DNA from: Zygaena filipendulae
Lineage: Eukaryota > Arthropoda > Insecta > Lepidoptera > Zygaenidae
DNA: 64,000 nucleotides
Assembly: GCA_907165275.2 (NCBI GenBank)
Contig: OU015668.1
Location: 7,497,658 to 7,561,657, forward strand
Reading direction: 5' to 3'
The translations under genes were made by a program, and so were the position numbers. The notes below the pieces were generated by a model, which saw only the letters and a program-made list of their open reading frames with translations, was not told the DNA's origin and made no database searches. Positions 13,894 through 53,057 of the stretch are shown one piece after another (positions within the stretch are counted from its first letter, which is position 1; the number at the start of each line of letters is the position of its first letter).

Positions 13894-16800
13894 TTACATG
13901 TTGTCTGAGTTAGCAACACCGTTGTAGAGTGTGTTATCCAGAAGATAAGTCTCGCATTGGTTACGAGAGTTGAAATCATCCAGATAATCTTGACCGAGAT
14001 ACTTGTTGATGATAGCCGAGCACCGCATATCCTCGGTTGCATACGGCAGGGCTGTACTCAGCTCATGCAGTACCAGCGGTTCGTTGAACAGTAAAAGCTT
14101 TGAGTCTGTCTGAGAATCCGAGAAAACCGGAGGCACTGCTTTCAAGACTACAATTTTGGACCGGAAAGGACCAAATTTCTTTTGATAATTTTTATTTAAT
14201 AATTGTATTCTAAAATACGCAGATTCAATGACAGTACGCATGTATTGATGAGTGTTGTTCATTTTACCACGCAAGGCTTTTAAACATGTATTCAATTTTT
14301 CGTCCCAAGTCCTCGCTTTCATCAGATCTGCTCCCATCGTTTCAGATTTGTTTCCAACGATTAATTGGTAGATGTGTTCTAACAAAGAATCCTGTAACTT
14401 TTCTGATCCCAAATCACCGAGATGAGACGTTACAGATGAGTGAATATCTTCAGGGGTACCACCTACACAGTAGACAGTGCCAGTTTTACCTGAAACAAAA
14501 ACACTGTGAGAAAATTATACACACACCATATTGACGTGAATAGGTACGTCTTTAAAACTGCTTCCATAGTGGGGGGCAAGTCAAGAAAATTAATGATAAC
14601 AAACTCGGCGGATACAATTTGGTGTTGCAGCTTAGTAGCTATTACCTCCATTCCAAATTCAATTCACCATTGGATAACTAAAGGTATTTTGCTATTTTTA
14701 GCTTTTTTAGTTTTGTGTTTTTGAAAGTTGGTTTTAATTTTTTCACAATTTATTTTTTTGTGGTATTGTCCATTCTATTCACGTCACGTTCTATTCGTAG
14801 GGCCAATAGTAGGTACTAGTGGTAGTTACTGGTACGGAGGTCTGGTACTCTTTATAAATTGAACCTAGTTATACCCACGATGCGTTTCACTATATTCACA
14901 CCTACCTGTATGGCTATAACTTTTAAAAAGCAGCTTTAACTTTAAAATAAACAAAGCAACTCGGCTTAATTAATTTTTTTTAGCAACAATAAATTAGAAT
15001 AATATCATTCAAAGATTCGTCTTGGCGGGGACTACCGTGTCTCCAGATTTACATGAAATATGGTAACAATATTTTTGTGTTGCACTAGTTTTATTTTTAT
15101 TCTTACCATAACCCTCCAGTATATTCGACATCTCCAAAGCCAACAACACGCCAGATTCATAACCCAACAAGTAGAAATTATTCTTATCCTTCAGTCTTTT
15201 CATCATAACCTGAGAAATAAACAAACACTATTTACACACATCAAAAATGTCTAGGGATCAAGTGCATTTTAGAGAATTGCCGCCAATTGGGATTATTATT
15301 GTAACTTTTCTGGATCCTTTTTGAAATTTTTTATTGAATTTCACCATTTCAATAAAGAATTTTATTCAAATTTTGTTTAAACTTTTAAAAATAACTGTCA
15401 TTAAAAATCCCTATAAAAGCGTGTGACGGCGGTTTTACAAAAACATTACAATTTCTGCATCGTAACTGAAAAAAATTGCATCGGTATGGAGCGATGACAC
15501 CACTTGCCTAGACAAGAGATGCTGAGAGCCGTTGGAATGTTGGAAGCTGGCACCAGGCAACGCCCTATGGCTACTGCTGTTGGGACAAGGCAGAGCGTCA
15601 TAAGCCGCCTATGGACACGCTATCGCATCACGGGCAGTGTGGCCGAGCGACATGGAGGGCGAACTCGTATCACCACTCGAAGACACGACCGGTATATCCA
15701 GAATACAGCGCGAAGAAATCGTACTATGACCGCCATGATGATAACTACGAGGCTCCACAGCGCTTCAGGCTTACTGATAAGCGATCAAACCATACGTAAT
15801 CGTTTAAGAGAAGTGGGTCTGCGATCCTGAAGGCCTCTGAGAGTTCCACCAATAGCGCCCCGCAATCGTACAGCCCGATTACAATGGGCTCGCGAAGACA
15901 GTAATTAGGAGGAAGAAGACTAGCGTGGTGTTTGCTTTTCCGAGGAATCTCGTTTCGGTATGAGGCCGGATACAAGACGTACATTAGTTTGGAGAAGCCC
16001 TGGATGTCAAGAACGATTGAAATTCTGTTAGGAAGTTCATCCATATGGAGGGGGAACAATGATGGTTTTAGCGGGTATTAAGATCGGTGGAAGAACCGAT
16101 CTCATTTGGATCAGGGGCAACCTTAATGCTCGGATTTATGCGACAAGTATTGTATCAGATGTAATCATCCCTTTGCGAAGCCAGTTGGGTGATTCGTTTC
16201 AACTTATGCACGACAATGCACGTCCACACACTGCTGGAGTCGTAACACGCACTCTTGCCAATGCTGATATCAACGTCCTGCCGTGGCCTGCTCAATCACC
16301 AGACTTAAATCCTACTGAGCACGCATAGATTATACTCCAAAGAAGAGTTCTGCCGAGTATGGACGCCTTAAATACCCCACAACAACTTTTTGACTTCTTA
16401 CAAAGAACGTGGGTGGCCATTCCTCAAAGTGATTTTGATGAACTGATTTTAAGCATACCAAATCGCTGCGAATGTGTGATTCGTGTCAATGGAAGGAACA
16501 CAGATTATTTTAATTTGTTTATTCATTACAATAAAAGTTTAAAAAACCCCTGTTTATGCCTTTTTTGCAATTTTATTGTCGACTTGGAATTGGTTCAATT
16601 TCTCTCATCTTACAAAAAATGAATATTTTCTTAATTTATTCAAAATGTGGGGATTAGTTGTTAATTTAGATTTGGGAAATAAGGTAGGCAACAAGCCCAG
16701 AAGATTAGATTAGATTTAAATTAATTGGGTTTCTTTTTATAGCAAAAAATGCACTTGATCCCTAGACACTTTTGATGTGTGTAGTTCTATCTTTCATAGT

Positions 16801-17736
16801 CGAAGATCACGATTTTTTTTTTTACTCTTTACAAAGTTTTGGTAGTTGAGGCAATAAGATTATTTTACAGGTTGTTAACGTTATTTAATATCTAATCAAT
16901 AATGAATTATTATTCTGTTATATTTACGTTCACGAGCCGCTGAGCCACCTCTCTCAAGGTTTCGTCCGGCCGGTTCACTTCGGGAAACAACATGAGCGCG
17001 GGCAACTTCAATCGTTCACAGAGCGCTTTGAACCTATTCCGATGCCCCTCCATGCCAGGCACTATGCACATATAGGTCTCACACGTGTTGTATTCATCGC
17101 CACGCTGCAAATGAAGATATACAAATCATTTTCAGAGTCAAAGACAGCTGCAGCTGGTAGAGGCCTTCTCTACTAAGTACTAAATAAAGTATGACTTGTT
17201 TTGCGATACCGTCGTCTTGTTTCTGCAATTTAACTTATATTTTACGAGAGGTTTTCCTGAATAACAGACTTGTTTTAAAAAAAGACTGTGACAAAAAAAG
17301 GAGAAAACATCATCTGCAAAATCATAATTTTTATTTTATAAGCTGATCCCCGAGATTTCACCCGCGTTAATTTCGGAGTTCTTGCGGGATTCTGGTTTAA
17401 AAGTACGCAATTTACAGTGTTCTGTAGGTACCTCTGACAACGTCTATGCAAAAATGCTTTATGTCGTGTTTAATCTTTGTTATTATTACAATCCATTTCT
17501 CAGCTCTTATAACACCTGTTGCATTGAAAGCAATGCCTGTGGATTAAGGCCACCTTTTGCTCAATTTTCAATGACCCACCTTTTTAGAACGTTGCAGCAG
17601 TGTCGGAAGCTCTATCAAGTCAGCCGTAGCGTCCACTTCCTCTTGGTCAAACATAGAGTTTGTTAAATATCCCTGAAATCCTGAGGATTTCTTTTGTAAA
17701 ATTATATCGACATTTTCATAGTGTAATTTTTTCAGC
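13894..17736 (-). CDS. Gene 1 exons 36-39: thioesterase (TE) domain, degenerate, with stop codon
   Basis: Exons: 17580-17736, 16928-17104, 15107-15209, 13894-14489. TE normally releases the finished fatty acid with a Ser-His-Asp triad. CIVPGMEGHRNRFKALCERL matches the N-terminal TE segment. The nucleophile elbow GYSxG is GYESG, with Glu2111 for Ser. The C-terminal GDHRxxLE segment reads GQDYLDDF (from 2293), so the histidine is missing as well. The last exon is long (596 nt) and ends TAA at 13894-13896. A degraded Tc1 transposon fills most of the intron between the two middle exons, absent from the matching intron of gene 2. Confidence 0.92.
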
Positions 17737-20700
17737 CTGTAAGAAAGTGCATGGATTTGATTTGGCGTTATGTGTCAAAGTCAAAGTCAAATCCTTTATT
17801 CAAATTTGACCCATAATGTGGCTCTTTTTGACGTCAATATAATTACAGTTATTGTGACAGCACCCATAAAATATCCACTACTCACAGCTTTCGGTTAAAA
17901 ACCTACTCAACAACGTTCAATAATAAAGAAAAAGGGGCGTACTTATGGTATCTCTCAATAAAAGAATATTTACTTAGCAATCGACAGCTGTGGCAAACAT
18001 TGCTTGGGAAGATCCAATTTGAATTTTGTATTCAGAAGCCAATATAGTTCCTGTACACGTTCATCAGTCAGACCCAACATCTCGAGGGTAAGGCTCTCAG
18101 GAGTGCAACTGCTGATGTTTAACCCTGTATTTAACACCATTTTGTGAATTAAAAATACCTATACTTCACTTGCCTGACAATTTGTATAATTCATCCTTTA
18201 ACAATCAGCGCAGCGTCCTTAGTTTTTCACAATGTTGCTTTTCTATATTTCGAAAATACTTATAATATCATTGATTTCGAAGCATTGCCATATGCTACGT
18301 ACCTCTGTTAGATTTAAACTGTGACCACGACAAATTCAAATGTTGTTCACAATGTTGCTTTTCTATATTTCGAAAATACTTATAATATCATTGATTTCGA
18401 AGCATTGCCATATGCTACGTACCTCTGTTAGATTTAAACTGTGACCACGACAAATTCAAATGTTGCTGAATTCTTGTAAACGATACTAATTGTGAACGGA
18501 AAAATTACGAAAATAGCTTGCGAGTTGTTAATATATGATATTATAATTTTATAATTCAACCTTTATTAGATTTACCTATTATAGAACAACAGCAGGCAGA
18601 TTGAAAATGTGCGCACGAGGTGATAGAGGTGTGTAAGTATGGAGGTCCAAAGGACAAGTGCGGGTGCCTAGACACCGCCTACCCTGCTTCCCGGAGGCAG
18701 GTAACATAGGTTAGACTTGTATTACACTATTAGTAACAAGTGACGGGATTACCTGGTATTTTTGCAATTTCTTCGATTAAATTATTTTTCACGGAGACTT
18801 TTTTGAATGAAGACACCACAGTTTTTTGGCTGTTTAGAGCTCTTTCAAGCAAATCAAGAGCACTATGTGTTTCTAGATATTGATCAGACGGTAATTCATT
18901 AACATTTTCTGACCCTACAAACTAAAAAAAAGGAAACATTTAAATCTTAACTCAGATTAAGTTTATGTTTTATATGATTTTCAATAATAAAATATTGTAC
19001 TGTATCTTATACAAAATATTGCGGCATACTTTTTTTAAGTTATTCAAACTTATCGATAAAGCAGGTAAACCAGATTTGGCACGTTGAACACATATTTCAC
19101 GACCAAAGTTTGAACCATCACTGATCATCACGAAGTTTCTGTCAAGAAACATAATATTATAATAACTGTAATTAATATATATAACATAATATTATAAAAA
19201 TTAATAAGTAATGATCTTTATATTGAATTGCACTCACTTTAATGAACTACAAATTTTTCTAGAAGTTATATCCAAAAAGTCCATTGCTGAATTGAGTTTA
19301 ATTTTATATTCTTCTTGAATATCATCAGTAGCAGTTCGTACCACAAATATTGCACGCACCGGTCCTATGTCGTTGCTTTTATTCAGAAAAAGGTGAATTT
19401 TTTCTTTCTCATCCAAATTGCCATCAAGGATTTTTACTTGAACGCCATGTTGTTCCCATAATCTAGGGAAGTTAAAGAGGATAAATGAAAATTATTTATC
19501 GTAGTATAGTAGCAGTGTTCGTTGTGGTAGTCTAGCGGGAGAATTCTCACTCTATTTAAAGGTCGGTTTTTTAAATCAGACTTGTTAAACCTACCTCCGG
19601 GTCTACTGATGGGCAATCAAGCTGGTTTAAAACCTTTGCTTAGGGTTTAAACCCGATAAAAGCACGTAAACGCTCACGTTTAAGTCGGGTTTAACCCAAG
19701 TACTGGGTTGATATACGGGTCTTTTTGTCTGTGTACAACACATTTCGCTTAGCACGAATATTTGGTGAAGCAAGTTCGTGTTAGAAGCAATTCGAAAGTG
19801 TGTGAAATCCACCGCACTCGGGCAATACACTAACGTCAACACACCCTCAGCTTTCAGGGTTAAAAATAGATTTTGTTACAGATCGTGATAGTAAATAGGC
19901 GACCTTATCTATACATATAAAATGCTTTATTCTGAATGACTGAAGGATCAACGCACAGCCTAAGCCGCTGATCATAGAGACCTGAAACTTGGAGGGTGTG
20001 TTTTTTGTGTGACGTAGGCATCCGAAAAGAAAGGGTTTTTGAAAATTTAACCCCCAAGGGGGAGAAAAGTGGTTGCAAAATTTGTATGGACATTGTGTTT
20101 TCTTGGAAGAAACTGGTCTAGAAATTGAAAAGGTAAAATTGCTAATTCAATTCCCACGGGAACTCCGAAACTATCGCAGGAAACAGTCATTAAAAAAAAT
20201 ACAGACCAGCATGCAGCATGCATAGCAAAAGATTAGTACATTAGTAGTATTTGAAGTAGGTACAATAAATCTGTACAAAGAGTAAACCGAATAAAAATGA
20301 AAAATATTTTACCTTTTCTTGAAATCTAAGTATCCTGATGTGCTGGGACACAACACATGCAGCTTCTCAACGCCGCTGGCGACAAGGTGGTCGGCAAGTT
20401 GTATACCAAATCCCTCATCATCGCAAAGTATTACGTAACATTCTTCCGGTGAGCAAGTCAATCTAAAGAGAATGAAAATGTATTGAAAACCGTAAAAGAG
20501 CGATGCTGGAATCAAAACGCAATCAGAGGGATCTTTTTAATAACTAGCTGTACCCCGCGGTTTCGCGTTAATTTCAGAACTTCCGCCTGATTCCGCCGAG
20601 ACTAAAATACCCTTTATCTTTTTCTGTATCCCTGATAACGTGTGTGCAAAATTTAATGATGATTGATTGAGCCGCTAAGGCGTGAAATCGTAACAAATAA

Positions 20701-41700: not shown

Positions 41701-44700
41701 CCTTTACGGTATGCTAAAAGAACCTACAGGAAAAAGAAAACTAGTCAACATTCTCTTGGCCTCTCTTTATGAACAGTCAGCATCAAAAGTTGCTAAGCAA
41801 TTTAGGTGTCCACATAGTGCTACACATTCGAAGTGTTCATAGTCATCTGTGCAACGAAAGATTTCTGATTTTGTGAGCACCGAGTGTTTCAATTATAACT
41901 GAGCACACAAATATTATCAAATATAAGATGTGGCAAAATTAGCATATAAGATGTGGCAAAATTAGCTGCAAATATTTACAGGGCTGAAAGTATTCGTTAT
42001 AACAAATAAAATAAGCGAAAAAATAATATTCTAAGTTTCGTAGTTTTTCAAAATATGAGGAAAATAAATTCATTGAGAAAGCATTACCAGATTCTCATGG
42101 TATACAATACATGTAGCTCACTAATATTTGATTGATTTGATTGATTTTGTTTGGTTTTTTTTTATATTGTATATTGTTGGGAGACTCGGCTTGAAAAGCG
42201 GCAACACTACGGGCAGCGCCATGACAGCGGTCGGCGCGTGAGACGGAACTACGGAACTAGTCGCTGTGTGCAAGTCATTCCGTCGCATCGTCGTTCATCG
42301 ATAAGTGTCGTTATATTGAAAGTTTATCATTTTTGTCTGTTTTTATAATTTATTTAGAAATTGGAGAAGTCTTACCTAAAAATATTTTATAAACATGTTT
42401 ATAACGGTGTACATTCAACGCTGTAAATATTTATAACTAATTTTACCACACTTTATATTTCTTAGCAAACAGATTTTTTTTGGGTGTGTGCTATCAGAGT
42501 ACATAGTATGCTTCTATAATATCTGCTGTTGACTGTATAAAATCTTCATAAGTTAGTAAATATTATAGATAACGGAAGGCTAACTTGCCTTGATAAGGGC
42601 GGATAATCCACAAGCGGTTCCAGTGTATCCGATGTTCGACATGACACTACCAACCAAGAGAGGTTTCGTTCGCTTATCGCAAAATATTTTATCTATTGCC
42701 TCCAACTCTGATTTATCGCTCCCAGGAATAGCTAAAACACATATTTTGTTTAAATGCATAACAGCAGTACTTAGGTTAAAAGAGACAATTACTATATAAA
42801 GTCGCTATTGAATTCATAGGTCTGAAAACATGTAAAGTCACTTATCCTAATTTATAAACCTTTTGTAATACCGGAAAATGGATTATCACATCTATTCTAT
42901 CTTTACTTTTTGCTAGTACTTTTTAGTGATACATTCGCAAAGTGATATTTGCTTTTTTGTGATAAAATTTTAAAATGTATCCACCTAAATGGAATCTCAT
43001 TAGGTTCACTCATTTTGACAGAATGAAAAACAAAATGCAAAATAGCTGGAAACAATATTTTGCTATTTTATTTTCTTACCTGCACCAAATCCTTCAACGT
43101 ATTCCACAAGAGAAGGGGAAAGTTCCGCTTCCCTATAGAATTCATTTAAAAAATTGACCGTGCAAGTGACGTCACGACCAGGACCATATTTCTGCCAAAA
43201 CTTTTCTCCAGCTCCAAAACCCGTCTTCACGTGACGTAATGAAGCATAGATTCTGTTGGATAAGTCATCACAATTGATTTACTTAGATTAATTTATTTAT
43301 ACATATACCTACTTTATACCTTTTTACAAGTAAAAACTGTAACGGCCGCACTCAGAGTCGACTTTAATGATTACTTAGTTAAGTATAGATTTGTAAAACA
43401 AAACTGCCGCAATCAGAGACGTCCAGTAAATTAATTTTAATTTGCATTTAATGAGATGTAACTTAATTAGTTAAATGCCAATTAACATTAATTTATTAAA
43501 CGTTTCTGATTGCGGCAGTTTTGTTTTCAAAATCTATACTTAACTAAGTAATCATTAAAGTCGACTCTGAGTGCGGCGGTATGACTTTACCTAGTTAATA
43601 TTAATTAAATTCACTCATTTTGACAGTTAAAGAAAAACAAAATTATGTAAAATAGATGGAAGCAACATTTTATTAATTAATAATAATAATAATAATCCAC
43701 TTCACAACACACAGATCTACTTGATTCCACACTAAAAGCTTGTGTCGTGTGTCGTGGAAACCAAGCAAACGTGGTATATACTATACATATTATTACATAA
43801 TTATATATTATAGTATAGATATATATATACACACCCAGACTGGAAAATGGAACCCTGTGTTCATCACACTAAGTCCACCCCCACCGGGAATTTGTTTATT
43901 TTATTGAAGTTTAACCTTTTTTATTTTACCTTTTAGCATCTTTTCGTTTTTGAAGGTAAATAACATTGACAGCTTCAGATTCGGACTGTCCATCTGCATT
44001 CATGTCATAGCTCTTCGTTTTCCCATCGCGATTCACAGGTATTATTCTTGAAAAAATTAAGCCCAGAAGTTTTAGAAATGCATATAGTACCTACCTAACA
44101 TACGTACGTCCTGAGTAGCGTATACATCAGACATCCCTAAAATGTGTGTTCGCATCACTATTATTCGTCTGCGAGTTATTATTATAAAAAAACTTGTACG
44201 TTTGTAAGTGACTAACCTTTAGATAATCTCTGAAAATACTGAACCGATTCTAAAAATTCCTTCACTCATAAATGAAGCCATAGTATACCGGAAGCAAGTA
44301 GGATATTTTTTATTCTGGAAAGAAGAGTTCTCGTGGGCATAGGTACCGAACTTTACGCGGATGATGTAACAGAAAAGGCTTACCTCTGGAAATTTATATA
44401 TGTTTGTGGGTGCAGTAAAATTTTTGAACAGCCTACAATAGCGGAATCGCATTCACCATGAAACAATGCTTGATAAGCTTTCTCTAACGCCGCGAGAGAG
44501 CTGCAGCAACCACTGTCGATCGAAATGGAGGGACCGTTCACATTCAGCCAGTACGATATACGATTGGCGCACATAGCTCGACTGCATCTGTTGATTAATA
44601 AATGAATGAACAATGAACTCTGTCGTTAATAAACATAAGTGGTACTGGATTACAGAGTCTGCAGTATCTAAAACTGTAAAATTATAAACTAGTATTTATT

Positions 44701-47700
44701 ATTATTGTATTATTATTATAGGTTTCATCTCAAATGAAATATCTTAGAACATATGTTTTTATAGCGGGTGGCGCTAGATTCACCCCTGTAAATATTTTTA
44801 ATTTTGTAAAATTTTCGTTAACTTACGCCTGTATTCCTACTTTGCTTGATTTATCGCTGGCCGTGCACGTGGAACATACTATTGTTTTTTCAGTCTCAGA
44901 GTTGTCCGAGGCGACGAAAACCCCTACACGTTTGCTTGAAAGTTCAGTCGGGTTCACTCCTAAATAAGTAATAATAATTAACTTGAAGATCACACACAAC
45001 TACTTCACACACTGTAAACGTCTTTTGTTTAAATCCAGCAAATGATACAATATAATAACAATACAAATATTCTCTATTGTCACCAAAAACTAAAAATATA
45101 AAATACATGGTGGGAAATACAGGCAACAAAGGGCGACCTTATTGCTTAAAAGCAAAATGATGTATAATATTATACAATGTGTTAATGGATTAACTGAAAA
45201 CCTGATACACCCCATTTAAAAAAATAAACAATAATATGATTAAAATATAATTTATGTCGAAAAAATTTATACTTAAAAGTTATTCAACATTAGTTTGGAG
45301 GTGACCTATCTACAAAATTCCAAACGCTACGCTCGCGCCTACCGGTTCGAATTTTTTTGCTGCGGGCGGCGTACGCGCCTAATATTGCATTAAAAATAAT
45401 TTAGACATGGGCTAATAAAAATGAAAAAATATAACCTATATTAAAACATAGTGCGATCGATTCGCTAGTTGATTCTGAGCAAACTACTTTCTAGTTTTTA
45501 GTTAATTCATTAACACGATGTATAATGTATATTGTATAATGCATACGAGCAAATCCAGTATTTTCTATCTTGTCGCTTACTCTTTATTTGTGGAGCAGCC
45601 TGATGACCACTTACACTAATTGATGAAGATAGTGAGGATATTATTACCTACCTATCAAGTCTGTAGTTAAATGCTTAGTATTCGAAAGATTAGGAAAAAC
45701 CAGCAAAAATGGCTCTAACTCTTTATACATGACTTACGAGTTTAGGGTGACAAGTGCTTACTGACTTAAATAATGTGAATACGAAAATATATAGTTAATT
45801 ATTATTAACTGTTCTCCGTAGTTTCAATTCCGGACTAAAAGTACCCAGTATTGGCGAAGGTACCATAGAAGCCGATTCCCGCCGGCTTCCCTTCAGAAAG
45901 CTTCCCTTCGACTTGGTGATAAAGCGACAAACCTGGACAACAAAAAAACAATATTCCAAATCGGTCTTGTCGAAACCGGTGAAATACGTATTATTGTTGA
46001 GTAGTTCCGATGACCACCTGTGGTCTTCATCATCAGTTCCACTTCTTCAATATTTGCTTTTCGAAAGCAAATGAACATGCATACAATAAAAAAAAACATA
46101 CATACAATCGAACATAGAAGCTCTTCCTTTTTGGAAGTCGGTTAAAAACGCCTAAACTATCAACAAAAGCTCTTCGAAAAAATATTGCTATAAAATAAGC
46201 CGCAGGCGTCATCGCCTTTTTGGCAGTTAAACTTCTACACAATAAACGTCATGACGTCACATTAAGGTCCCTCTACCCGGCAACCAGCTAAAGTATTATG
46301 GTAAGCCGCTGCAAACCGAGTTACTTGATAGAGACAGTAGTAGAAAATGCGTGCGCGTGAGCGAGATGCAGGAGTATCCTAGAAATATCGGTCCTAGAAA
46401 TTCGAAACGAAACGACATTTGGGTTGACTGTTGACAAACAATTTGAATTTATAATGAAAAAATTCAAAATTTATAGGTATCTGAATTTATTATTTAAGTG
46501 CGTAGGTATTTGAATTTATTTCTTGGTATAAAATAGTGATAAGTATTATAGTTGGACTTTGTTTATTTATCTTGTGTGTAGTGATAGTAAAAGCAGTTAG
46601 GTAGGCGTACGTTGTAATTAGGTATTTGCGGTAAATAGATAGTTTAATAAGTTGAAATTACGTATTTAGAGTGAGTACTAAATAGATTTCCGGCTTAGGT
46701 ACCTCTTTCAATATTTCACTCTTTGCCACTGCTACCCAGTAGGTACCCTATGTCTTTCGTCTCTAGTTCGCTTCACCTCACGGACAAGAAGGTAGACTGA
46801 GGGTGTGTGCGTGACGTGCGTTATTCGCCAAGCCAACCCACTCCGAGTGTGTCAGAGGGAGAGGGAGAGAGCGACAGACACTATTTGCCTCTCTCAGCCA
46901 GCGGAGGAGGAGGCCGAGGAGAAGCAGCGGAAGGAAACTGTAGACCAGACAGCGCACGCCGCCAAGCGCGCACTATCCTCCCCGGAAGAGGTTCAAGACT
47001 CGGTGCAGAGAAGAGTGCATCGCGCGTGACAAGCTGTGCGGCTGCGCCTCTGGCCGGCCTTGTGGGCGGCGGACTGGAGACGCAGCCGACGGATGAAGAT
47101 TTGGGACCTCTATATGCTTCAAATTTTGCTATAGGTATCTACTTACTTTTGAAGCTTTGGCATCGCGTCTCTATCGAGTTGATCTATCTAAGTTCTCTAT
47201 TTCAATATAGGAGTCGTGTTATTGACTTGTCGGACGTCATTTTTAGACGCACGATTCCAAATAAAATTTCAATAATTAATTATTATTTCGATCTCAAAAG
47301 TATGTACTAAAATGACATCGAGATGAAATCAAATCGAATTCAAATAAAAATCCGTATCAGACTCAAATCATTTTCAAGAGAGCCCGCAGAGCAAAAAAGA
47401 ATGTTAGGCTAAGGTGCTTCTCGGGCGACTGGGGTGCGCTTTCCTTCGATTCGGTCCTTAACCTTTAACTAGTGACATGATAAATTTGTAACAATAGGGG
47501 ACATGACGTCTCACAAGCTACTACTTTCAAAGTCAATATTTTCATAAAATTGCATTTGGATGTTTCAAAATTATGTTGATATTTTACTATTGGTATGTAA
47601 TAAAATAAATTTGAATAAATTCAATCAGTTTTTCTTATTTATTTAGAAAATAAACGGTAATTAAAAATTGGCTCTAATTGACATGAGATCCTTTTCTTAG

Positions 47701-50700
47701 CATTTTAATAGAGCCTAACCCAGGCTTCCTAAGCGACGGCTGACTTTCTAATTAGTTTTACTTCCGTATTAAACAACCGATGACAGGTCTGCCTTCTTCT
47801 ATGGTTGTTTTAGCACTAAAATTAAAGCTACTAAGACGCGGGGTCGCGGCAAGCGGCAGAAAGTGGTCAATTTAAAAAATTTGCAAAACTTGTGACGCCT
47901 GTGAGACTACACGTCACTAGTTAAAGGTTAACATAACCAAGACTGGTTAGCAAGACCCTAGGTTGGAAGAGAGTTGTACCCCTAACAACATATTATAACT
48001 ATCCAAAATTTCACGATGATCAGTTGAGTAGTTAAGGCGTGAAAGCGCGACAAATGAACAAATAAATAAACAAAGTAACTCACATTCGCTTTTATAATAA
48101 TAGCATTATATCTTCGATGGTATTCAACTACACTCCAGATGATCCTTGTCTTTCTTTTTACTATAAAATACTAATTGCACATGAAAATATGCACACCAAA
48201 AAAAATCTAGTTTTATAGTGTAACGGGGTGGTGCGAGGATGAAGAAGAAGAAAACAAATATATTTTTAGCGTACCGCTGACCGCGTTCACGAGACGCTCA
48301 CTGGGCTCGCTCAGTTCGTAGTAGTTCGCTCAGTGTAGTTGAAACAATTGATAGGAGTACTTCATTCAGCGTGCATACATAATAATATAATAATATATCA
48401 TTGATGTGCACAGAATATTTCCCTTATACTCTTTCAATATTCGTGGCTACCCATTTCCACTTTGCGCCGAGAAAGAAAGAAAAAAGAAAACTACATTTAT
48501 TCCAGCACAACCCTTCCCTTCTCTCAGTCCTAGACAGGGGCGTAGCTACGGCCGTATCAGTTTCTTAAAAGTTTATTTCAATAATCTAACCTGCATCGAA
48601 TAGAGCTTGGTAAGACTGCTCGAGCAGCAACCGCATCATAGGATCGAAAAAGTTCGCCAATCTGCTATGAATCATAAAAGGCTCTGCATCAAACAGATCT
48701 ATATCGGGGATCTTCCCTGCGTACTCCGACAGCTCTGGGTGTTCGTAATTCCATCGAGGATTTTCTTTGGTCACCATGTTTACCTGGGCAGTTAAAAGGA
48801 GAAGTTGAAATTTAAAAGCAGGCGTTAATAAAAATTTGTTCATGACTCTAAAAGTTTGAGAAAGCTTTCGACAAGTCTATATTAAAATTAATTGACAACT
48901 CTTCAAGTTACACTGTAAAAAAAACATCTTGTAAAAAATTAGTCTCTTCAAATCTTACTTGCACACTATGGAGGGTAGAAGTAAGGAGAACCGTCTCGCA
49001 GTGGCGAAGGTACCATACAAGCCGATTCCTACCGGCTTCCTTTCAGAAGTTGGGAACACAACCACTCTCTCTACCATAATTTAGAAATGGCACAATCAGT
49101 AATTTTTGTAGTAAGTATTTCAGTAGATTCTACAGAAAATTATCTCTACTGAGTAGAAAACATTACAAAACGCCTAAACTATCAACAAAATTTGCTCTTC
49201 AACAACAAATTGTTATAAAATAAGCTGCTGGCGCGATCGGCTTTTTGGCAATTAAACTTCCATACAAAACAATGCCGTGACGTCACATCAAGCCGCTGCA
49301 AATCGAGTTACTCCCTCCATCTCGCTCACGCGCACGCATTTTCTATTACTGTCTCAACAAATATCCTTATTGGTCCTAGAAATTCGAAATAAAGCGGACA
49401 TTCTGAGCTGACTGTTGACAGACAACTAGAGTTTATGACGAAAAAATTGAAAATTTGACTTTGTTAGTTAGTGTCACGTATTAGAATTTATTTCTTGGTA
49501 TTAAATAGTGATTAGTATTAAAGTAAGTTTTTTTTTTGTTGAGTGTAGTGATAGTGAAAGCAGTTACGCAGACGTACGCTGAAATTAGGTTTTTGCGGTA
49601 AGTAGATAGTTCAATAAGTGGAAATTACGTATTTATAGTAGGTACCAAATAGATTTCCGGCTTGCCTCTCTCAATATTTCAACCTTCGCCACTCTCTCGG
49701 GATTAGTTGAAAAAAGTGTCCAGCGGTAAACAGTAAATTATAGTTCGAACACTCACCAAAATGGCGCTAGTGTAGGAAGTGGATATGATATGAAATTAGC
49801 AGTTATAAACAGAGTGAAGTGTGCTGAGTGGGAAAATTTAATAAAAAATGCGCTGTAACAAACCGGAAATTCTTCTTTCCTTTTTTAATTTAGTATCCTA
49901 CTCTAATAGTTTGTGGCGCTCTTTTAAAAATTCTTCCACTTGTTACTATGGCGCCACCTTAATTTGCTGCCTTTCAACGGACACTTTTTAATACACTGAG
50001 ATGGTCCTCCTTACCTACCTACCATACTGCACACTAATAGGAAAAGACATTAAAATAGATAGACCGACAGCAAAAACTTTTACTATGCAATCCACGTCAA
50101 CTAATTTTTGCAGGAGGAATGATCAAAATAAATCAAAATAAAAAAAACTAAATAAAATAAATCTTCTTCTTCTTCTTCTTGCGGCTCAATCAAATACCAA
50201 TCACCACAAAGTACATTTTAAATAGCCAATCACATCGCTTTCCGTCAAGTGGTATCTAGTCCTACTAGTGCTGTAACGATATCAATACAATTATTTATCG
50301 ATGAAATTTGTCAAGATTTAATTTATAATTAAATCTCATCCACCGTTGTCTATGCAAACCAAACTGGAGTAAGTTTCCTAGAGAACGTCGAGTGTCACCG
50401 TATCGTCAAATAGCGGTGAAGCGGTGCCATCAGTTGCATGATGGCCGTCATAGTGGTGATAAATAGTCATGCGATGTTTTGAGCAATTCATTTTTTTTTA
50501 AATCATGAAGCATTAGATATACAATATAACGGCCGCACGTAGAGTCGACTTTAATGATTACTTAGTTAAGTATAGATTTTTAAAACAAAACTGCCGCAAT
50601 CAGAGACGTTCAGTAAATTAATGTTAATTGGCATTTAAACATTAATTTATTAAAATTGTCTGGTTGCGGCAGTTTTGTATTAAAAATCTATACTTAACTA

Positions 50701-51436
50701 AGTAATCATTAAAGTCGACTCTGAGTACGGCGGTTAGACTAAAAGAATATAGACAAGTGAGTACTAAGTAACTACGATTGAATACGGTCGTACCGTTTCT
50801 AGGAAATTACAGCTGTTAAAAGACGGCCGCAAAGAAAGTTAGAACATAACAAAATATTACGGCTAGATTACGGCACCGCTCTCCTAGGAATTTAATTAAA
50901 TACAAAAAATCTAATCTTTTCTGATTATAATATTAATAATTATGAATGTAGGTAACATTCATGAGATTTATTATTTCATAAATATTAAATACTATCCCGA
51001 TTTGTTATCTTACTTTACTTTTCCATTTTGCACTGGACTATCTAGAACAGAAATATCTAGTAAAATACACAAAAACAAAAATTGATTTTATCCCGATGAT
51101 AAAACTTCTCTGCAGTAATTGTAGGAATAAACCAAATGAATAAATGTCAAAATTATTCTTGGTCTCTCCATATAAAAATGCCCATTCTTCGTTGAAAAAT
51201 CCAGCAGTGAGGTTATAGCGAGGACAGTTAAGAATTGTGAGAAAAAATCTATACCAAATTAAACAAGTTAACTTAAATTGTTAAGTTACCTTGTTATAAA
51301 GCTTTTCTTCGAACTCCATCAGGTTGTGGCAATCGGGCAAAAGCCCGGACATGCCGCTGATGACGATGTCGTTGCCGTCATACGCGGCGCTGTCCGCGTC
51401 CACGAGCGAGCCGCAGTCTTCAGGAAGTGGTGCCAT
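13894..51436 (-). CDS. Complete 39-exon fatty-acid-synthase-family gene (FAS-like, probably catalytically dead)
   Basis: Animal type I FAS architecture, reconstructed exon by exon from the reverse strand. The 39 coding exons sum to 6978 nt including the stop, giving 2325 residues. No in-frame stop was seen and the intron phase agrees across all 38 introns. Domain order is KS (about 1-440), linker, MAT (about 520-790), DH (about 830-1145), structural core (about 1146-1368), ER (about 1369-1700), KR (about 1714-1890), ACP (about 1920-1985) and TE (about 1990-2325). The chosen start is the ATG at 51436 (context AAACAAATGG); exon 1 has an acceptor AG 20 bases upstream, so an untranslated 5' exon, or a more distal start, probably exists. 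Catalytic residues are missing in KS, KR, ACP and TE (see the domain entries), yet length, frame and splice sites are intact. A functional pseudoenzyme is therefore favoured over a decaying pseudogene. Its biochemical role cannot be read from the sequence. Confidence 0.93.
14650..14750 (+). mobile_element. End fragment of the ACCGACTTCC repeat family
   Basis: The stretch ttagttttgtgtttttgaaagttggtttta matches the right end of the element at 25552-26690. Only the terminus is present, in the last intron of gene 1. Confidence 0.5.
15235..16781 (+). mobile_element. Full-length but dead Tc1-like transposon
   Basis: Inverted ends of about 35 bp begin CACACATCAAAA and continue to TCTAGGGATCAAGTGCAT. 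They are flanked by TA at 15233-15234 and 16782-16783, the Tc1/mariner target duplication. The transposase runs from 15504: an HTH region (AVGTRQSVISRLWTRY), then FSEESRF where the first catalytic Asp is normally found, LMHDNARPHTA for the second Asp, and SPDLNPTEH for the Glu. Stops after 15828, near 15905, 15918 and 16030, and TAG in place of a Trp at 16326-16328, inactivate it. It lies in the gene 1 intron whose gene 2 counterpart is only 540 bp and lacks it. Confidence 0.92.
17763..17830. mobile_element. LINE 3'-end fragment
   Basis: Contains the aaagtcaaagtcaaa...cctttattcaaa signature common at lepidopteran LINE ends. Only the tail is visible. Confidence 0.45.
17974..18921 (-). CDS. Gene 1 exons 34-35: KR-ACP linker and acyl carrier protein without its serine
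   Basis: Exons: 18753-18921 and 17974-18124. Exon 34 ends NNLIEEIAKIPG and exon 35 continues LNISSCTPESLTLEMLG, aligning with the start of the ACP four-helix bundle. Active carriers have LGMDSLM, with Ser carrying the phosphopantetheine arm. Here the stretch is LGLTDER, so Asp1952 sits at the Ser position, and the helix then continues VQELYWLLNTKFKLDLP much as VEVKQTLERDYDIVLS does. No other serine lies close enough to replace it. Without the arm the chain cannot hold growing acyl groups. Confidence 0.88.
18226..18465. repeat. 120-bp tandem duplication
   Basis: The 60 bases from 18241 recur unchanged from 18361, and the match extends to both sides with a period of exactly 120. It is in the intron between exons 34 and 35. 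The near-identity suggests a recent event, or an assembly or slippage artefact. Confidence 0.9.
19030..20462 (-). CDS. Gene 1 exons 31-33: ketoreductase (KR) domain, degenerate
   Basis: Exons: 20313-20462, 19238-19462, 19030-19138. KR normally reduces the beta-keto group with NADPH through Tyr, Ser, Lys and Asn. The Rossmann loop GG(L/F)GGFG is replaced by CDDEGFG (about 1727-1733). The catalytic stretch SS-(10 residues)-GQTNYGMANS is shortened: after FVMISD comes GSNFG directly, then REICVQRAKSGLPALSI. The catalytic tyrosine is therefore Phe1850 and about ten residues around it are missing. The flanking helices (GPVRAIF, SGLPAL) still identify the domain. NADPH reduction by this domain is unlikely. 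Confidence 0.9.
19905..20100. mobile_element. Helitron-type fragment
   Basis: tatctatacatataaaatgctttattctgaatgactgaaggatc and the following acctgaaacttggagggtg are typical of lepidopteran non-autonomous Helitron-like repeats. The other end is not found. Confidence 0.45.
20545..20740. mobile_element. Helitron-type (CTAG-end) fragment
   Basis: Starts ctagctgtaccccgcggttt and runs to aaactcacattcgcatttat, the two ends of the common lepidopteran element, in inverse orientation. Non-coding. Confidence 0.6.
20741..21264. mobile_element. MITE with inverted ends
   Basis: Ends TAATGCTACTGCTCCACCT and its reverse complement, 524 bp apart, with no ORF, in the intron between exons 30 and 31. It directly abuts the Helitron fragment on its left. 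Confidence 0.75.
21725..23556 (-). CDS. Gene 1 exons 24-30: enoyl reductase (ER) domain
   Basis: Exons: 23404-23556, 23205-23317, 22976-23126, 22733-22904, 22236-22348, 21985-22149, 21725-21897. This is a medium-chain-reductase-type domain that in FAS uses NADPH to reduce the enoyl-ACP double bond. LLWPVPAHWTLEEAATVPLPYAIAFY matches the FAS ER segment that precedes the cofactor fold, and the nucleotide loop VHGGAGALGQA (about residues 1520-1530) looks functional. FPELKDDHIGNSRDTSF follows as in other FAS. The lysine of the usual NSLAEEK segment appears to align with Glu here (SCVKGEL); that alignment is by eye and less certain than the KS, ACP and TE losses. All seven exons have consensus GT-AG sites. 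Confidence 0.9.
23811..24162 (+). mobile_element. Non-autonomous Helitron-type element
   Basis: Starts TCTATACTAATATTATAAAG and ends ...GGGGGTCACCTAGT, the TC...CTAG arrangement. It contains two internal copies of the GGAATTCC(C)GTGGGAACTC block. A second related copy follows at 24166-24465. Confidence 0.65.
24697..26879 (-). CDS. Gene 1 exons 21-23: central structural (pseudo-methyltransferase) core
   Basis: Exons: 26762-26879, 25238-25486, 24697-25113. The position between DH and ER corresponds to the non-catalytic core and vestigial methyltransferase region of animal FAS. Exon 22 contains FLQIIAENLNKNELTVVEV, like the LQI-ENxxxxxLKVVE pattern of that region. Exon 23 is the longest internal exon (417 nt) and keeps all reading in phase 0. 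Sequence conservation is weaker here than in KS or MAT, as in other FAS proteins. I see no S-adenosylmethionine glycine-rich motif. Confidence 0.85.
25552..26690. mobile_element. Repeat element with ACCGACTTCC inverted ends
   Basis: Left end TTAACCGACTTCCAAAAA and right end TTTTTGGAAGTCGGTTTTAA are inverted. The inside holds two imperfect direct repeats of about 240 bp (25690-25925 and 25930-26180) and an inverted accgatcagtgtaccgg region near 26390. No transposase found. A related element in opposite orientation is at 59560-60265. Confidence 0.7.
26968..26969 (-). other. GC-type splice donor (intron after exon 20)
   Basis: The exon ends ACTAG and the intron starts GCACGT. A GT four bases further on would give phase 0 and an immediate in-frame stop with the downstream acceptor. 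The GC site gives the phase 2 needed. Confidence 0.6.
26970..31034 (-). CDS. Gene 1 exons 16-20: dehydratase (DH) domain, catalytic pair retained
   Basis: Exons: 30915-31034, 30313-30422, 29979-30169, 27305-27450, 26970-27224. In FAS the DH removes water from the beta-hydroxyacyl-ACP. The first hot-dog half carries HIVEGSMVFP, fitting HxxxGxxxxP, with His905. The second half carries WVTLIDSVIQL, giving Asp1050 and Gln1054 in the usual DxxxQ arrangement. A DIYK...RGYDYG-type segment is present as DIYKLLFEKGYEYKGEF. Substrate from its own chain is not expected because KS, KR and ACP are degenerate. Exon 20 ends at a non-canonical GC donor (ACTAG, then gcacgt); the following exon only joins in frame with this choice. 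A deleted piggyBac sits in the intron between exons 18 and 19. Confidence 0.9.
27534..29143 (+). mobile_element. Internally deleted piggyBac element
   Basis: Perfect 13-bp ends CCCTAGAAAGATA at both termini are flanked by TTAA at 27530-27533 and 29144-29147. The 19-bp internal inverted repeat TGCGTAAAATTGACGCAT is present next to the left end and inverted near 29083. Broken pieces of a piggyBac transposase are readable on the plus strand. The N-terminal region at about 28190-28540 includes LASSSASHRILNLPKR and SALNIF-CQRSPTRMCR. The C-terminal cysteine-rich tail region is near 28700-28800 (KIRRKANASYNKCKK). The catalytic middle is deleted. It is in the gene 1 intron between exons 18 and 19. 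Confidence 0.93.
29152..29935 (-). mobile_element. Three consecutive Helitron-type copies
   Basis: Three similar units start ctagctgt(a/g)ccccgcg or agctgtcccccgcg at about 29154, 29461 and 29754. Each runs through GGAATTCCGGGATAAAA to ttatatatatta. They are arranged head to tail directly after the piggyBac right end. Confidence 0.65.
30664..30856 (+). mobile_element. Helitron-type element
   Basis: Begins TTACTAATATTATAAATGCG and ends GGAACAGCTAGT, the complete short form of the family (about 190 bp). Confidence 0.65.
31430..31745. other. GC-rich island in an intron, unexplained
   Basis: A visibly GC-rich stretch (ggcggcggcgg, ggcgcgcgcaatttgcgccgc) in AT-rich surroundings. It holds an internal direct repeat: acttcttatgttgtgtacca and acttcttatgttgtctacca, about 103 bases apart. 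Plus-strand open frames exist (for example from the ATG at 31513) but match nothing I know. Confidence 0.5.
32160..32460. repeat. LINE-tail remnant and (GT)n/(GC)n microsatellite
   Basis: An (AAT)n-rich region and a tail-like ctcccacaagtaaatacatatt precede the cluster cgcgcgctcgcgcgcgcacg followed by (tg)n at 32400-32450. Non-coding. Confidence 0.5.
32710..40142 (-). CDS. Gene 1 exons 10-15: malonyl/acetyltransferase (MAT) domain, motifs intact
   Basis: Exons: 39989-40142, 39501-39670, 34139-34290, 33469-33652, 33212-33360, 32710-32894. The domain opens with RPLWFVYSGMGSQW, the usual entry of the FAS acyltransferase. The nucleophile elbow is GHSAGE (Ser611), the carboxylate-binding arginine follows in YIRG, and the catalytic histidine is in IAFHSRY (His713). 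In FAS this domain moves malonyl and acetyl groups from CoA to the ACP. Since the ACP of the same chain lacks its attachment serine, a normal acceptor is missing. The C-terminal part reads APHGLLQAILKRSL, strongly FAS-like. Exon 11 is separated from exon 12 by a 5.2 kb intron built largely of direct duplications. Confidence 0.93.
34322..35117 (+). mobile_element. Composite Helitron-type element
   Basis: Starts TCTATACTAATATTATAAAG and ends GGGGGTTAGCTAGT. Between them the block from gtgagtttgt to GGAATTCCCGCGGGAACTC recurs about five times, so the unit has expanded internally. Confidence 0.65.
35190..35710 (+). mobile_element. LINE 3' fragment with end of RT ORF
   Basis: One frame reads RRTDFFSYSYTVHAARLWN, then GIRRARSRVHFKRLVREHL and a stop, like the C-terminal end of CR1/jockey reverse-transcriptase ORFs. 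A 3' region follows, ending gccttaggcattaagtccgcctttt and an AATAAAT tail. Confidence 0.6.
35832..36398. mobile_element. Long foldback (near-perfect palindrome) element, copy 1
   Basis: Two arms of about 280 bp are almost exact inverted copies around 36110. The ends are ATCCCATCAAAAACAAACTT and its complement. It would form a long hairpin in DNA or RNA and has no ORF. It is in the 5.2 kb intron between exons 11 and 12. Confidence 0.88.
36762..37332. mobile_element. Long foldback element, copy 2
   Basis: Same palindrome as the previous copy, in the same orientation. Together with its 3' flank to 37796 it forms a direct duplication of 35832-36761. The second unit has an extra 80-odd bases (about 37368-37451) missing from the first. 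Confidence 0.88.
37797..39486. repeat. Pair of 0.85-kb direct repeats
   Basis: 37797-38649 and 38650-39486 are near-identical and adjacent. Each contains Helitron-type blocks (GGAATTCCCGAAGGATCTCC, CAGCTAGT), a small hairpin (attacaaagttat...ataactttgtaat), and a (GTGA)n run. That run is about 40 bp at 38366-38405 in the first copy and shorter in the second. Confidence 0.9.
40200..40507 (+). mobile_element. Non-LTR 3' end with (ATTC)n tail
   Basis: Ends aataaagtgtttttcattcattcattcat, the simple-repeat tail of a non-LTR insertion. The open frame over it is not recognisable. Confidence 0.4.
40725..41035 (+). mobile_element. tRNA-derived SINE
   Basis: A box TAGCTTAGTGGTTGG at 40731-40745 and B box GGTTCAAACTC at 40775-40785. 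A tRNA-unrelated body and an aaaaagaagaag tail follow. It is a different family from the SINE at 12140-12405. Confidence 0.75.
41139..41325 (-). CDS. Gene 1 exon 9: KS-MAT linker
   Basis: This exon of 187 nt is bounded by AAG at the acceptor and gtaagt at the donor. The peptide runs from NLERYACDLPYIVTASGR to SHLARGYGIY. It matches the linker that packs between KS and MAT in animal FAS, which has the pattern LPRLV-SGR near its start and a PYRGY-like segment at its end. No catalytic function is expected. It joins exon 8 in phase 0 and exon 10 in phase 1. Confidence 0.9.
41520..51436 (-). CDS. Gene 1 exons 1-8: ketosynthase (KS) domain, degenerate
   Basis: Exons: 51290-51436, 48591-48783, 44827-44959, 44384-44587, 43930-44046, 43080-43252, 42589-42731, 41520-41723. 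The fold is clear: DIVISGMSG near the N-terminus, MDPQLRLLLE replaced by FDPMMRLLLE, and CSRAMCANRISYWL before the nucleophile. In FAS the KS condenses acyl and malonyl units using Cys-His-His plus a Lys. Here Cys185 is present (DSGCCSS), but the EAHGTGT histidine is Phe320 (EGFGAAI), and the KSNMGH lysine and second histidine are Met353 and Tyr358 (MSNIGY). A normal decarboxylative condensation is not expected. The end of exon 8 matches the usual C-terminal KS segment (EGRMRIVTD, then FSFTGVNGHVLL). The second intron (48590 to 44960) and the first are large and full of transposons. Confidence 0.92.
42176..42310. other. GC-richer segment, possible LTR remnant
   Basis: Starts TGTTGGGAGACTC and is clearly GC-richer than its intron. 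Only one copy is seen, so an LTR cannot be demonstrated. Confidence 0.25.
42587..42588 (-). other. GC-type splice donor (intron after exon 7)
   Basis: The exon ends ATCAAG and the intron starts GCAAGT, the classic strong context of GC-AG introns. Only this choice joins ...SALIK to VLLAYRKG in phase 0, as in other FAS. Confidence 0.8.
43343..43579. mobile_element. MITE with about 80-bp inverted ends (CGGCCGCACTCAGAG family)
   Basis: The left arm from cggccgcactcagagtcgac and the right arm are inverted copies; each includes actgccgcaatcagagacg or its complement. Relatives are at 50530-50733 and a left-end piece at 55200-55245. Confidence 0.85.
43687..43893 (-). mobile_element. Truncated SINE (tRNA head missing)
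   Basis: Matches the body of the SINE at 12140-12405 up to ccccaccgggaa, then breaks off before the B box is complete. Confidence 0.75.
45175..45520. mobile_element. MITE, inverted copy of the one at 481-827
   Basis: Inverted ends CAATGTGTTAATGGATTAAC and TTAGTTAATTCATTAACACG. The interior is the reverse complement of the first copy with scattered differences. Confidence 0.85.
45849..46731. mobile_element. Non-autonomous hAT element with nested insertion
   Basis: Ends TATTGGCGAAGGTACCAT and TTTGCCACTG, diverged from the CAGTGGCGAAGG ends of its relatives. Flanks gtacccag and ctacccag are a 7/8 match to an 8-bp target duplication. A piece of the ACCGACTTCC family is nested at about 45893-46150. 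Confidence 0.7.
46800..47110. other. GC-rich island next to the hAT element, unexplained
   Basis: GC-rich, with purine-rich agagggagagggagagagcg and two long overlapping plus-strand frames without an ATG start. It ends near TATAG, then gtatct, which resembles a donor. No homology recognised. It lies in the second intron of gene 1. Confidence 0.4.
47111..48580. other. Intron sequence, little recognised
   Basis: Contains a Helitron-type end at about 47990-48105 (ccaaaatttcacgatgatcag to aactcacattcgcttttata). Otherwise nothing identifiable. Confidence 0.45.
48999..49693. mobile_element. Non-autonomous hAT element, CAGTGGCGAAGG family
   Basis: Left end CAGTGGCGAAGGTACCAT and right end CAACCTTCGCCACT. 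The interior matches 56627-57374. Located in the first intron of gene 1. Confidence 0.8.
50083..50265. repeat. Repeat shared in inverted orientation with 60297-60446
   Basis: Both contain ccacgt(c/t)a(a/g)ctaatttttgcag and accacaaagtacattt(ta/ca)aatagccaatca in opposite directions. Family not identified. Confidence 0.65.
50530..50733. mobile_element. MITE, CGGCCGCAC family
   Basis: Inverted arms of about 80 bp, 204 bp in total. Same family as 43343-43579, in the first intron of gene 1. Confidence 0.85.
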
Positions 51437-51971: not shown

Positions 51972-53057
51972 GTGGTAAGGAAGAATGATTATACCGGAAT
52001 GTCTGCGAGCAAAAGTCCTTTCTTACTTACATGCTCAACCGAAATAAAAAGTCATCAAGGTCACCCAGGAACAGCAGTCATGAAAGCATTAGCTAGATTT
52101 TATGTATGGTGGCCATCACTAGACCATGACATTGATAACTATGTAAAAATGTGCAAAGGATTGTTGACGAGTGAAAGCCGTATCGAAAACACGCGTGTCA
52201 CGTTTTTCGTTATTTCAGTCACTTTTCAGCATCTACTTTGGACCCTGAGCAGGAAACTGACTTTCAAGAGAGCCATGTTTTAACTTGGGGAACAATCTAA
52301 CATTGTCATTGGCGTTTCGCCATAATTGAAGAAGTAGATGAAGAGATTGTTATCATTAAGAAACATTGTAATTGGCAAATTATAATTATAGACGCCATTA
52401 TTAAAGAAGAAGAAGAAGATGCCATACTCAAAAGAATAACTGCCAGACAAACCGACGACATAATCCGGAGCTGCCTGTATATTCGTGGTCTATTCCCAAA
52501 CAAGTATGGGAAAGAATACACATCGATTTCGCTGGATCTTTTGAGGACAATTATTGTCTTGTGGTATGTGATGCTCTATCAAAATGGGTAGAGGTAAAAG
52601 CCATGAAACGAACTACAACAAGAAATTTATGTTCAGTCTTGGATGACATATTATGCACGTTTGGCTTACCACGTATAATAGTTTCTGATAATGGTCCCCA
52701 ATTTACTTCCTCTGAGTTTAAAGAGTACTGTGAGAATAATGGTATTTTACACATTACCTCCTCACCTTATCATCCACGTACCTACTAATGGTTTGGCCAA
52801 AAGTTTTGTAAGGACCTTCAAGTTAAGAATGGAATCAACTCAAGGAAACATTTCTAGACGTCTGAAGGAGTTTTTATTCACATACCGAAATTCACCTCAT
52901 GCCACCACTAGCAAGTCACCAGCATCTGATGCTTGGCCGCCAACTTGTCTTCTATCCAACATCAACCCTGATAAACGGAGAAAATTGCAATATCAACAAA
53001 TTCAAGCCAATGTTGAGTCGTCTGGTACACCTAACTTTACACCAGGTGATCCTGTAT
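51972..53057 (+). pseudogene. Broken gypsy-type integrase fragment
   Basis: The plus strand reads the integrase zinc-finger side (SHQGHPGTAVMKALARFYVW, then VKMC). After a disrupted insert-like part at about 52160-52430 it continues into the core: IHIDFAG with the first Asp, VSDNGPQFTSSEF with the second, and NGLAKSFVRTFK, where the catalytic Glu (normally AER) is Lys. A frameshift near 52785 separates the last part. No reverse transcriptase or LTRs are seen. It lies between gene 1 and gene 2. Confidence 0.88.

Follow-up and report, generated by a model that had tools for sequence, protein, structure and literature searches.

An acyltransferase is the one catalytic site complete in all examined members of a lepidopteran family of full-length pseudo-fatty-acid synthases

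Aberrant fatty-acid synthases (FAS) that form lineage-specific expansions are already known in insects, Lepidoptera among them (PMC5039406; Sci Rep 2016). In the part of that study considered here, the proteins of cluster III have lost the carrier and have altered DH, ER, KR and TE domains, with KS and MAT unmodified. Loss of the MAT is described for cluster II of Orthoptera, Coleoptera and Diptera; the two clusters are treated separately, and the same part draws no link between them. It also cites mortality after RNAi against two Tribolium genes, TC000238, whose domain structure resembles that of cluster III, and TC15337, which lacks the MAT. The function of the aberrant expansions, and of copies with a dead or missing acyltransferase (AT), was called unclear in 2016. 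The canonical animal type I FAS (Drosophila FASN1, 6fn6/P0122; porcine FAS, 2vz8; Bombyx p270, P0293) keeps the KS His, Lys and His together with the ER, KR, ACP and TE catalytic residues. The lepidopteran protein described here shares with it the domain order, the length and the AT and DH residues, but not those other residues.

The window that we analysed is a stretch of 64,000 nucleotides of the Zygaena filipendulae genome (C19:7497658-7561657 of a 365.9-Mb assembly). A Maniola FAS-like protein was aligned to its minus strand in a splice-aware manner and the junctions were then checked by hand, so that the gene model is based on homology and splice sites (Table 1). The open reading frame comprises 6966 nt without internal stops, and its introns are of the GT-AG (n=36) and GC-AG (n=2) types. 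The strand, the limits and the 39 exons with consistent phases are those given by the first-pass annotation; its full-length reading frame stands, although our model has 2321 codons where it counted 2325. On the spliced protein, Pfam recognised the N- and C-terminal KS domains, the KS extension, the AT and the ER Rossmann domain, gave a weak DH match below the cut-off and found nothing for KR, ACP or TE, the KR having no match at E 0.001. Homology of the KS-AT part to canonical animal FAS spans query residues 21-855.

Table 1. Positions within the window of the pseudo-FAS gene, its coding exons and neighbouring features
Feature	Position	Strand	Basis
Whole gene, pseudo-FAS with intact AT, 39 coding exons, 2321 aa	13894..51436	-	spliced model
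Exon 1, start codon ATG (51436-51434)	51290..51436	-	spliced model
Exon 2	48591..48783	-	spliced model
Exon 3	44827..44959	-	spliced model
Exon 4, KS Cys185 kept (codon 44508-44506)	44384..44587	-	spliced model
Exon 5	43930..44046	-	spliced model
Exon 6, KS His to Phe320 (43089-43087)	43080..43252	-	spliced model
Exon 7, KS Lys to Met353 (42642-42640), KS His to Tyr358 (42627-42625), GC donor	42589..42731	-	spliced model
Exon 8	41520..41723	-	spliced model
Exon 9	41139..41325	-	spliced model
Exon 10	39989..40142	-	spliced model
Exon 11	39501..39670	-	spliced model
Exon 12, AT Ser611 (34285-34283) and Arg636 (34210-34208) kept	34139..34290	-	spliced model
Exon 13, AT His713 kept (33493-33491)	33469..33652	-	spliced model
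Exon 14	33212..33360	-	spliced model
Exon 15	32710..32894	-	spliced model
Exon 16	30915..31034	-	spliced model
Exon 17, DH His905 kept (30325-30323)	30313..30422	-	spliced model
Exon 18	29979..30169	-	spliced model
Exon 19	27305..27450	-	spliced model
Exon 20, DH Asp1050 kept (27139-27137), GC donor	26970..27224	-	spliced model
Exon 21	26762..26879	-	spliced model
Exon 22	25238..25486	-	spliced model
Exon 23	24697..25113	-	spliced model
Exon 24, ER begins	23404..23556	-	spliced model
Exon 25	23205..23317	-	spliced model
Exon 26	22976..23126	-	spliced model
Exon 27, ER glycine motif HGGAGALG kept	22733..22904	-	spliced model, alignment
Exon 28	22236..22348	-	spliced model
Exon 29, Q and S in place of the ER catalytic Lys and Asp	21985..22149	-	spliced model, alignment
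Exon 30	21725..21897	-	spliced model
Exon 31, KR glycine loop degraded	20313..20462	-	spliced model, alignment
Exon 32	19238..19462	-	spliced model
Exon 33, KR Tyr to Phe1850 in HMMER alignment (19107-19105)	19030..19138	-	spliced model, HMMER
Exon 34	18753..18921	-	spliced model
Exon 35, ACP Ser to Asp1952 (18065-18063)	17986..18124	-	spliced model
Exon 36	17580..17736	-	spliced model
Exon 37	16928..17104	-	spliced model
Exon 38, TE Ser to Glu2107 (15158-15156)	15107..15209	-	spliced model
Exon 39, including stop codon (13896-13894)	13894..14489	-	spliced model
AT domain (aa 523-837) with its introns; best-conserved region of the family	31019..40077	-	Pfam PF00698, E 1.2e-74
Next tandem copy upstream, last four coding exons (63494-63650, 62992-63168, 62349-62451, 58442-59034)	58442..63650	-	dN/dS 0.35 against the pseudo-FAS gene

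Catalytic residues were read against solved FAS sequences and in an alignment of 305 proteins. In the KS, Cys185 is kept and the His, Lys and His are replaced by F320, M353 and Y358, leaving the catalytic set incomplete; these three changes, and that of the phosphopantetheine Ser of the ACP to D1952, agree exactly with the first-pass annotation. The replacement of the TE Ser by Glu was likewise borne out, at residue 2107 instead of 2111 because our model is four codons shorter, a difference that shifts only the TE number; the TE His is missing. The reported loss of the KR NADPH loop was also confirmed, as the glycine loop and the Ser/Tyr region clearly lack conservation. By contrast, the reported change of the KR Tyr to Phe1850 depends on the alignment: it is seen with HMMER (SNFG versus SNYG), but in the multiple alignment 120 of the 121 family members described below are gapped there. 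The ER keeps its NADPH glycines, but its catalytic Lys and Asp are replaced by Q and S. All three AT residues (Ser611, Arg636 and His713) are intact, as are H905, D1050 and Q1054 of the DH. The completeness of the AT was missed by the first-pass annotation, which also makes no mention of the kept KS Cys and DH residues or of the ER changes. The gene thus encodes an intact, full-length FAS that has lost key catalytic residues, as had been observed at first.

We next compared the protein with its closest relatives, taken as the best 120 of 1356 matches to its KS-AT-DH part, ranked on residues 1-1200 and none dropped. All carry the names of lepidopteran species (insect orders throughout were assigned from species names), and their identity over the aligned part is 45-58%. 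The AT Ser, Arg and His were each present in 121/121 of these proteins, the window protein included, in a set that favours AT-conserved members because the stretch used for ranking (KS, AT and DH) contains the AT. The other sites behaved differently. KS Cys185 is kept in 108/121, the KS Lys column holds Met in 96 and Lys in none, the second KS His column holds Tyr in 110, and the first holds Phe in 77 and His in 2. The TE Ser column contains Glu in 115 of 117 ungapped sequences and Ser in the remaining 2, both from Plutella, with a gap in 4 proteins; the TE His column is a gap in 119/121. At the variable ACP Ser column, Ser is aligned in 16/121. The DH residues of the window protein are not kept family-wide, the His column being His in 84 and Asn in 34 (Asp 117/121, Gln 119/121).

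Whole-domain conservation followed the same pattern. The share of columns conserved at 95% or more was 52% in the AT, 23% in the KS, 19% in the LD, 11% in both DH and ER, 3% in the TE and 0% in KR and ACP, and mean pairwise identity was 0.79 for the AT, 0.65 for the KS, 0.52 for the ER and 0.31 for both KR and ACP. Against Bombyx p270, the 121 proteins averaged 70% identity in the AT, 46% in the KS and 17-38% in the remaining domains. In a tree of the 305 proteins built without the AT columns, the 121 formed one clade (support 1.0) with zero intruders, outside lepidopteran and trichopteran FAS and sister to them (0.953); this sister position is less certain because the branch leading to the clade is long (1.25). 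The gene therefore belongs to a clade of full-length lepidopteran pseudo-FAS whose AT is the sole catalytic site complete in all examined members. An AlphaFold2 model of a 1169-residue family member, P0118 (mean pLDDT 76.2, pTM 0.45), gave Foldseek matches to KS-MAT structures of FAS at very small E-values; query TM-scores were only 0.31-0.33, so we draw no geometric conclusion from it.

The gene is not alone in its genome. At least ten matches to the main KS exon, that of the window gene included, lie at 7.34-7.77 Mb of C19, all on the minus strand, and the genome carries a tandem array of about ten pseudo-FAS copies as a lower bound. We modelled three further copies, A, B and C, with 39, 40 and 39 predicted exons and no stops, which is weak proof of intact frames because the aligner penalises stops; the model of copy A lacks one end. 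All three match the window gene at 12/12 checked residues. One junction of copy B could be bridged only with an exon of 5 bases, perhaps because of an artefact or of damage to a splice site. Across the six pairs among the four modelled copies, whole-gene dN/dS was 0.24-0.31 (p 9e-48 for one pair). This upholds the earlier claim that the gene is under constraint. Because the same substitutions recur across the family and dN/dS between copies is this low, the substitutions exceed what chance would give.

We considered whether the gene might instead be a functionless FAS duplicate, silenced or in decay. Evolution outside the AT is fast, as the long clade branch also indicates, and the junction in copy B could reflect damage. 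However, four copies extend without stops over 39-40 exons (the weaker point, given the aligner's penalty), dN/dS is well below 1 and the losses are common to the 120 relatives, which makes this explanation highly improbable. A functionless pseudogene is accordingly disfavoured by the dN/dS between copies and the family-wide sharing of the losses.

Selection between the copies is strongest in the AT. Pooled over pairs, pN/pS was lowest in the AT (0.15, versus 0.23-0.41 in other domains), although in single pairs other domains were sometimes constrained like the AT (LD in the window gene-copy C pair, WIN-C; KR and ER in A-B). In the two independent copy pairs, AT pN/pS was 0.14 compared with 0.33 for the rest (23.0 N and 49.0 S changes versus 276.2 N and 232.8 S; Fisher p 0.0004, bootstrap ratio 0.24-0.70). 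The contrast was equally strong in two of the other four pairs and weaker in the remaining two (p 0.02 and 0.047), with one bootstrap interval extending to 1.03. On both the pooled and the independent pairs, the AT is the part of the pseudo-FAS under the strongest purifying selection.

One possible explanation for an intact AT is exchange of AT exons with canonical FAS by gene conversion, in which case the AT would not be the selected function. The window protein is 67% identical to Bombyx p270 in the AT and 43% in the KS, as such exchange could produce. An AT-only tree (303 of the 305 proteins), however, again placed all 121 in a single clade free of FAS sequences (support 0.93). Conversion from AT exons of FAS therefore does not account for the intact AT; moreover, AT pN/pS is low between copies while AT pS (0.17) is ordinary, within the range of other domains. 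We consider this possibility to be slight.

The first-pass annotation had proposed a pseudo-FAS with a binding, scaffolding or regulatory job, perhaps as a partner of the active FAS. Part of this proposal holds, as the protein is constrained and would not synthesize fatty acids alone. A non-catalytic scaffold, or a sequestering or regulatory FAS partner, would be consistent with the whole-gene dN/dS and with the loss of most catalytic residues in a body whose KS and ER nevertheless retain the pairwise identities given above, and the AT could then be kept for CoA-ester binding or for folding. What a purely scaffolding, binding or regulatory role leaves out of account is the AT Ser, Arg and His, unchanged in 121/121 proteins (the window protein plus the 120 best-ranked of 1356 relatives), and the purifying selection centred on the AT. 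This alternative therefore seems rather unlikely to us, and acyl transfer in trans, rather than pure scaffolding, is most likely the retained job.

To examine catalytic FAS in the same way, we added to the alignment proteins retrieved on the DH-to-KR part, leaving the AT outside the ranking. Of the 117 new rows, 100 were kept: 79 lepidopteran FAS (2200-2560 aa; P0245 and P0298 counted by tree placement), 5 trichopteran proteins and 16 others. The KS Cys, His, Lys and His, the ACP Ser, the TE Ser and the KR Tyr were kept in 79/79, the intact KR being expected because the set was retrieved on DH-KR. The AT Ser, Arg and His, by contrast, were all kept in only 41, with alterations in 38; the AT Ser column held another residue in 19 and a gap in 2. 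In altered proteins that keep the Ser it is mainly the Arg that has changed, which may shift the substrate rather than abolish activity. Conservation in the 38 AT-altered FAS nearly mirrored that of the pseudo-FAS set: mean pairwise identity was 0.55 in the AT and 0.53 in the TE versus 0.77 in the KR and 0.72 in the ER, and columns conserved at 95% or more made up 5% of the AT, 40% of the KR, 32% of the ER and 30% of the ACP.

The 38 AT-altered FAS fell into seven pure clades, requiring six Fitch changes in either direction: three in Vanessa/Nymphalis, and one each in Euphydryas/Melitaea, Spodoptera, Galleria/Achroia and Parnassius with Pectinophora/Phthorimaea/Tuta. Beyond Lepidoptera, AT alterations occurred in Arctopsyche (Trichoptera; 3/5 proteins), two ladybirds and Agrilus, and aphids, Adelges and two stick insects differed at the Arg only. 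All 84 proteins kept from the 120 rows of a Drosophila-centred search (2300-2560 aa; fused P0121, P0123 and P0126 out) were intact at every tabulated site. Counted by hand, 16 species have an AT-altered FAS, and 13 of these are also represented among the best 120 pseudo-FAS; in 8 of the 13, the longest contig has the same length for an AT-altered and a pseudo protein. This co-occurrence does not discriminate, because both lists hold the best 120 and species whose listed FAS are all AT-intact, such as Bombyx and Plutella, have pseudo-FAS too. In Tuta absoluta, an AT-altered FAS and a pseudo-FAS are numbered consecutively as genes (g4320 and g4321).

In the present genome we resolved two catalytic FAS. 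The one at C19:2.18-2.23 Mb has an intact AT (GHSVGE, YSRG, AYHS) and intact KR, ACP and TE motifs, and the one at C9:12.83-12.85 Mb has the AT motifs GHSVGE, YWRG and AFHS in a stretch that excludes the ACP and TE. Scoring of 37 of the 83 KR candidates gave no third case of a KR adjacent to a KS match; on C15, a 2-kb fragment from another FAS-like gene retains a KS Cys. As both resolved FAS keep the AT Ser, Arg and His, neither is an AT-lacking partner, and the pseudo-FAS probably does not exist solely to rescue one. A strict system, with an AT-lacking FAS in every genome that has a pseudo-FAS, is thus unsupported here.

This result bears on another reading, in which the protein is a stand-alone acyltransferase or acyl-CoA hydrolase with an acceptor outside FAS (a small molecule, lipid, protein or water) and the FAS body serves as a fold or dimer scaffold. 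The centring of conservation on the AT, the absence of a carrier serine in cis and the lack of an AT-lacking FAS among those resolved here all fit it. However, only 3 of 315 AT columns set the family apart, at the thresholds used, from the 41 AT-intact lepidopteran FAS, which suggests FAS-like substrates; moreover, the keeping of a 2321-residue FAS body would go unexplained and the recurrent AT loss in FAS paralogues would become a coincidence. We regard this reading as possible but improbable.

Instead, we favour, with about even confidence, a pseudo-FAS that has been retained because it transfers acyl groups in trans, perhaps while paired with a catalytic FAS in a heterodimer. The protein would bind malonyl- or acyl-CoA and form an acyl-enzyme at Ser611. 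As the pseudo-FAS itself lacks a carrier serine, the acyl group would need a receiver elsewhere, and the ACP belonging to a catalytic FAS could take it up in trans. In the simplest form, the pseudo-FAS would be the AT-donating subunit of a FAS heterodimer, joined through the retained KS/DH/ER body, which would explain why so large a dead scaffold is kept. Such a helper would also make AT loss in FAS tolerable, as repeatedly observed in FAS paralogues. The AT-altered FAS of other species could equally be served by AT-intact FAS, and the proposal leaves the near-fixed TE Glu and the KS Phe, Met and Tyr unaccounted for. A residual DH role is possible for the window protein, whose DH residues stay. 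More tentatively, there may be a natural split, trans-AT FAS in Lepidoptera, in which AT-only subunits and FAS that may lose their AT form combinatorial heterodimers with varied loading of extender and primer units, and in which a pre-existing trans-AT supply opened the way to repeated AT loss.

The principle would be shared with bacterial trans-AT polyketide synthases, in which discrete acyltransferases act in trans on AT-less synthases; here, by contrast, the AT lies inside a largely dead insect FAS body. Rangan, Joshi and Smith (2001) reportedly obtained, by mutant complementation in vitro, FAS heterodimers in which the AT of one subunit serves the carrier of the other. Those were engineered mutants, whereas the system proposed here would be a natural, gene-encoded version. 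If it is true, the animal FAS, regarded as one self-sufficient homodimer, also exists in a naturally divided form whose loading subunit can be exchanged, and the puzzling aberrant FAS expansions of insects, as well as FAS copies whose AT is dead or absent, gain a testable role; it could also bear on the diversification of cuticular lipids and pheromone precursors in moths and butterflies. Among the literature matches listed, covered at the level of titles and abstract openings and with subscription papers mostly outside that scope, we found no proposal of an AT-only FAS acting in trans in insects, nor of a division of labour with AT-altered FAS. The closest described proteins, as far as the part of the source considered here goes, are those of cluster III, with which the window protein shares the absent carrier domain, the modified DH, ER, KR and TE and the retained MAT (PMC5039406). 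That cluster is described, at the domain level, with an unmodified KS, whereas the KS of the window protein is still recognised by Pfam but has lost its His, Lys and His. Likened to cluster III in this way, by description, the family presented here adds a near-fixed TE Glu, selection centred on the AT and a reciprocal loss of the AT in catalytic FAS.

Glutamate occupies the TE nucleophile position in 115 of the 117 ungapped members of the pseudo-FAS family, which we aligned as the window protein together with its relatives, the best 120 of 1356 hits, all from Lepidoptera. Decay would not be expected to produce such near-fixation. Across the same 121 proteins, the KS His, Lys and His positions are non-randomly replaced, mostly by Phe, Met and Tyr, and the KS Cys is retained in 108. 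A new function for the KS pocket is possible in the family. Two members from Plutella xylostella, P0098 and P0101, retain the TE motif GYSFG, and P0098 also retains the second KS His; these proteins are possible intermediates.

Features in the window
Feature	Position	Strand	Domain match
KS F320, M353, Y358	43089-42625		
E2107, TE nucleophile position	15158-15156		
Second pseudo-FAS copy, C-terminal exons	58442-63650	minus	
Open frame with integrase core domain	52405-52785	plus	PF00665, E 1.4e-17

The second pseudo-FAS copy belongs to a tandem array of approximately ten copies on the contig that carries the window, and the integrase frame is probably a retroelement fragment lying between two copies of this array. 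Elsewhere in the genome, a 2-kb stretch (G000:C15:10116001-10118000; L036) holds KS exons of another FAS-like gene, the main one being 62% identical to Bombyx p270, a canonical FAS, and 46% to the window protein.

Beyond Lepidoptera, the AT Ser and Arg are replaced, with the KS, ACP and TE sites intact, in the FAS proteins P0330, P0332 and P0334 of Arctopsyche, as well as in P0348 and P0357 of ladybirds.
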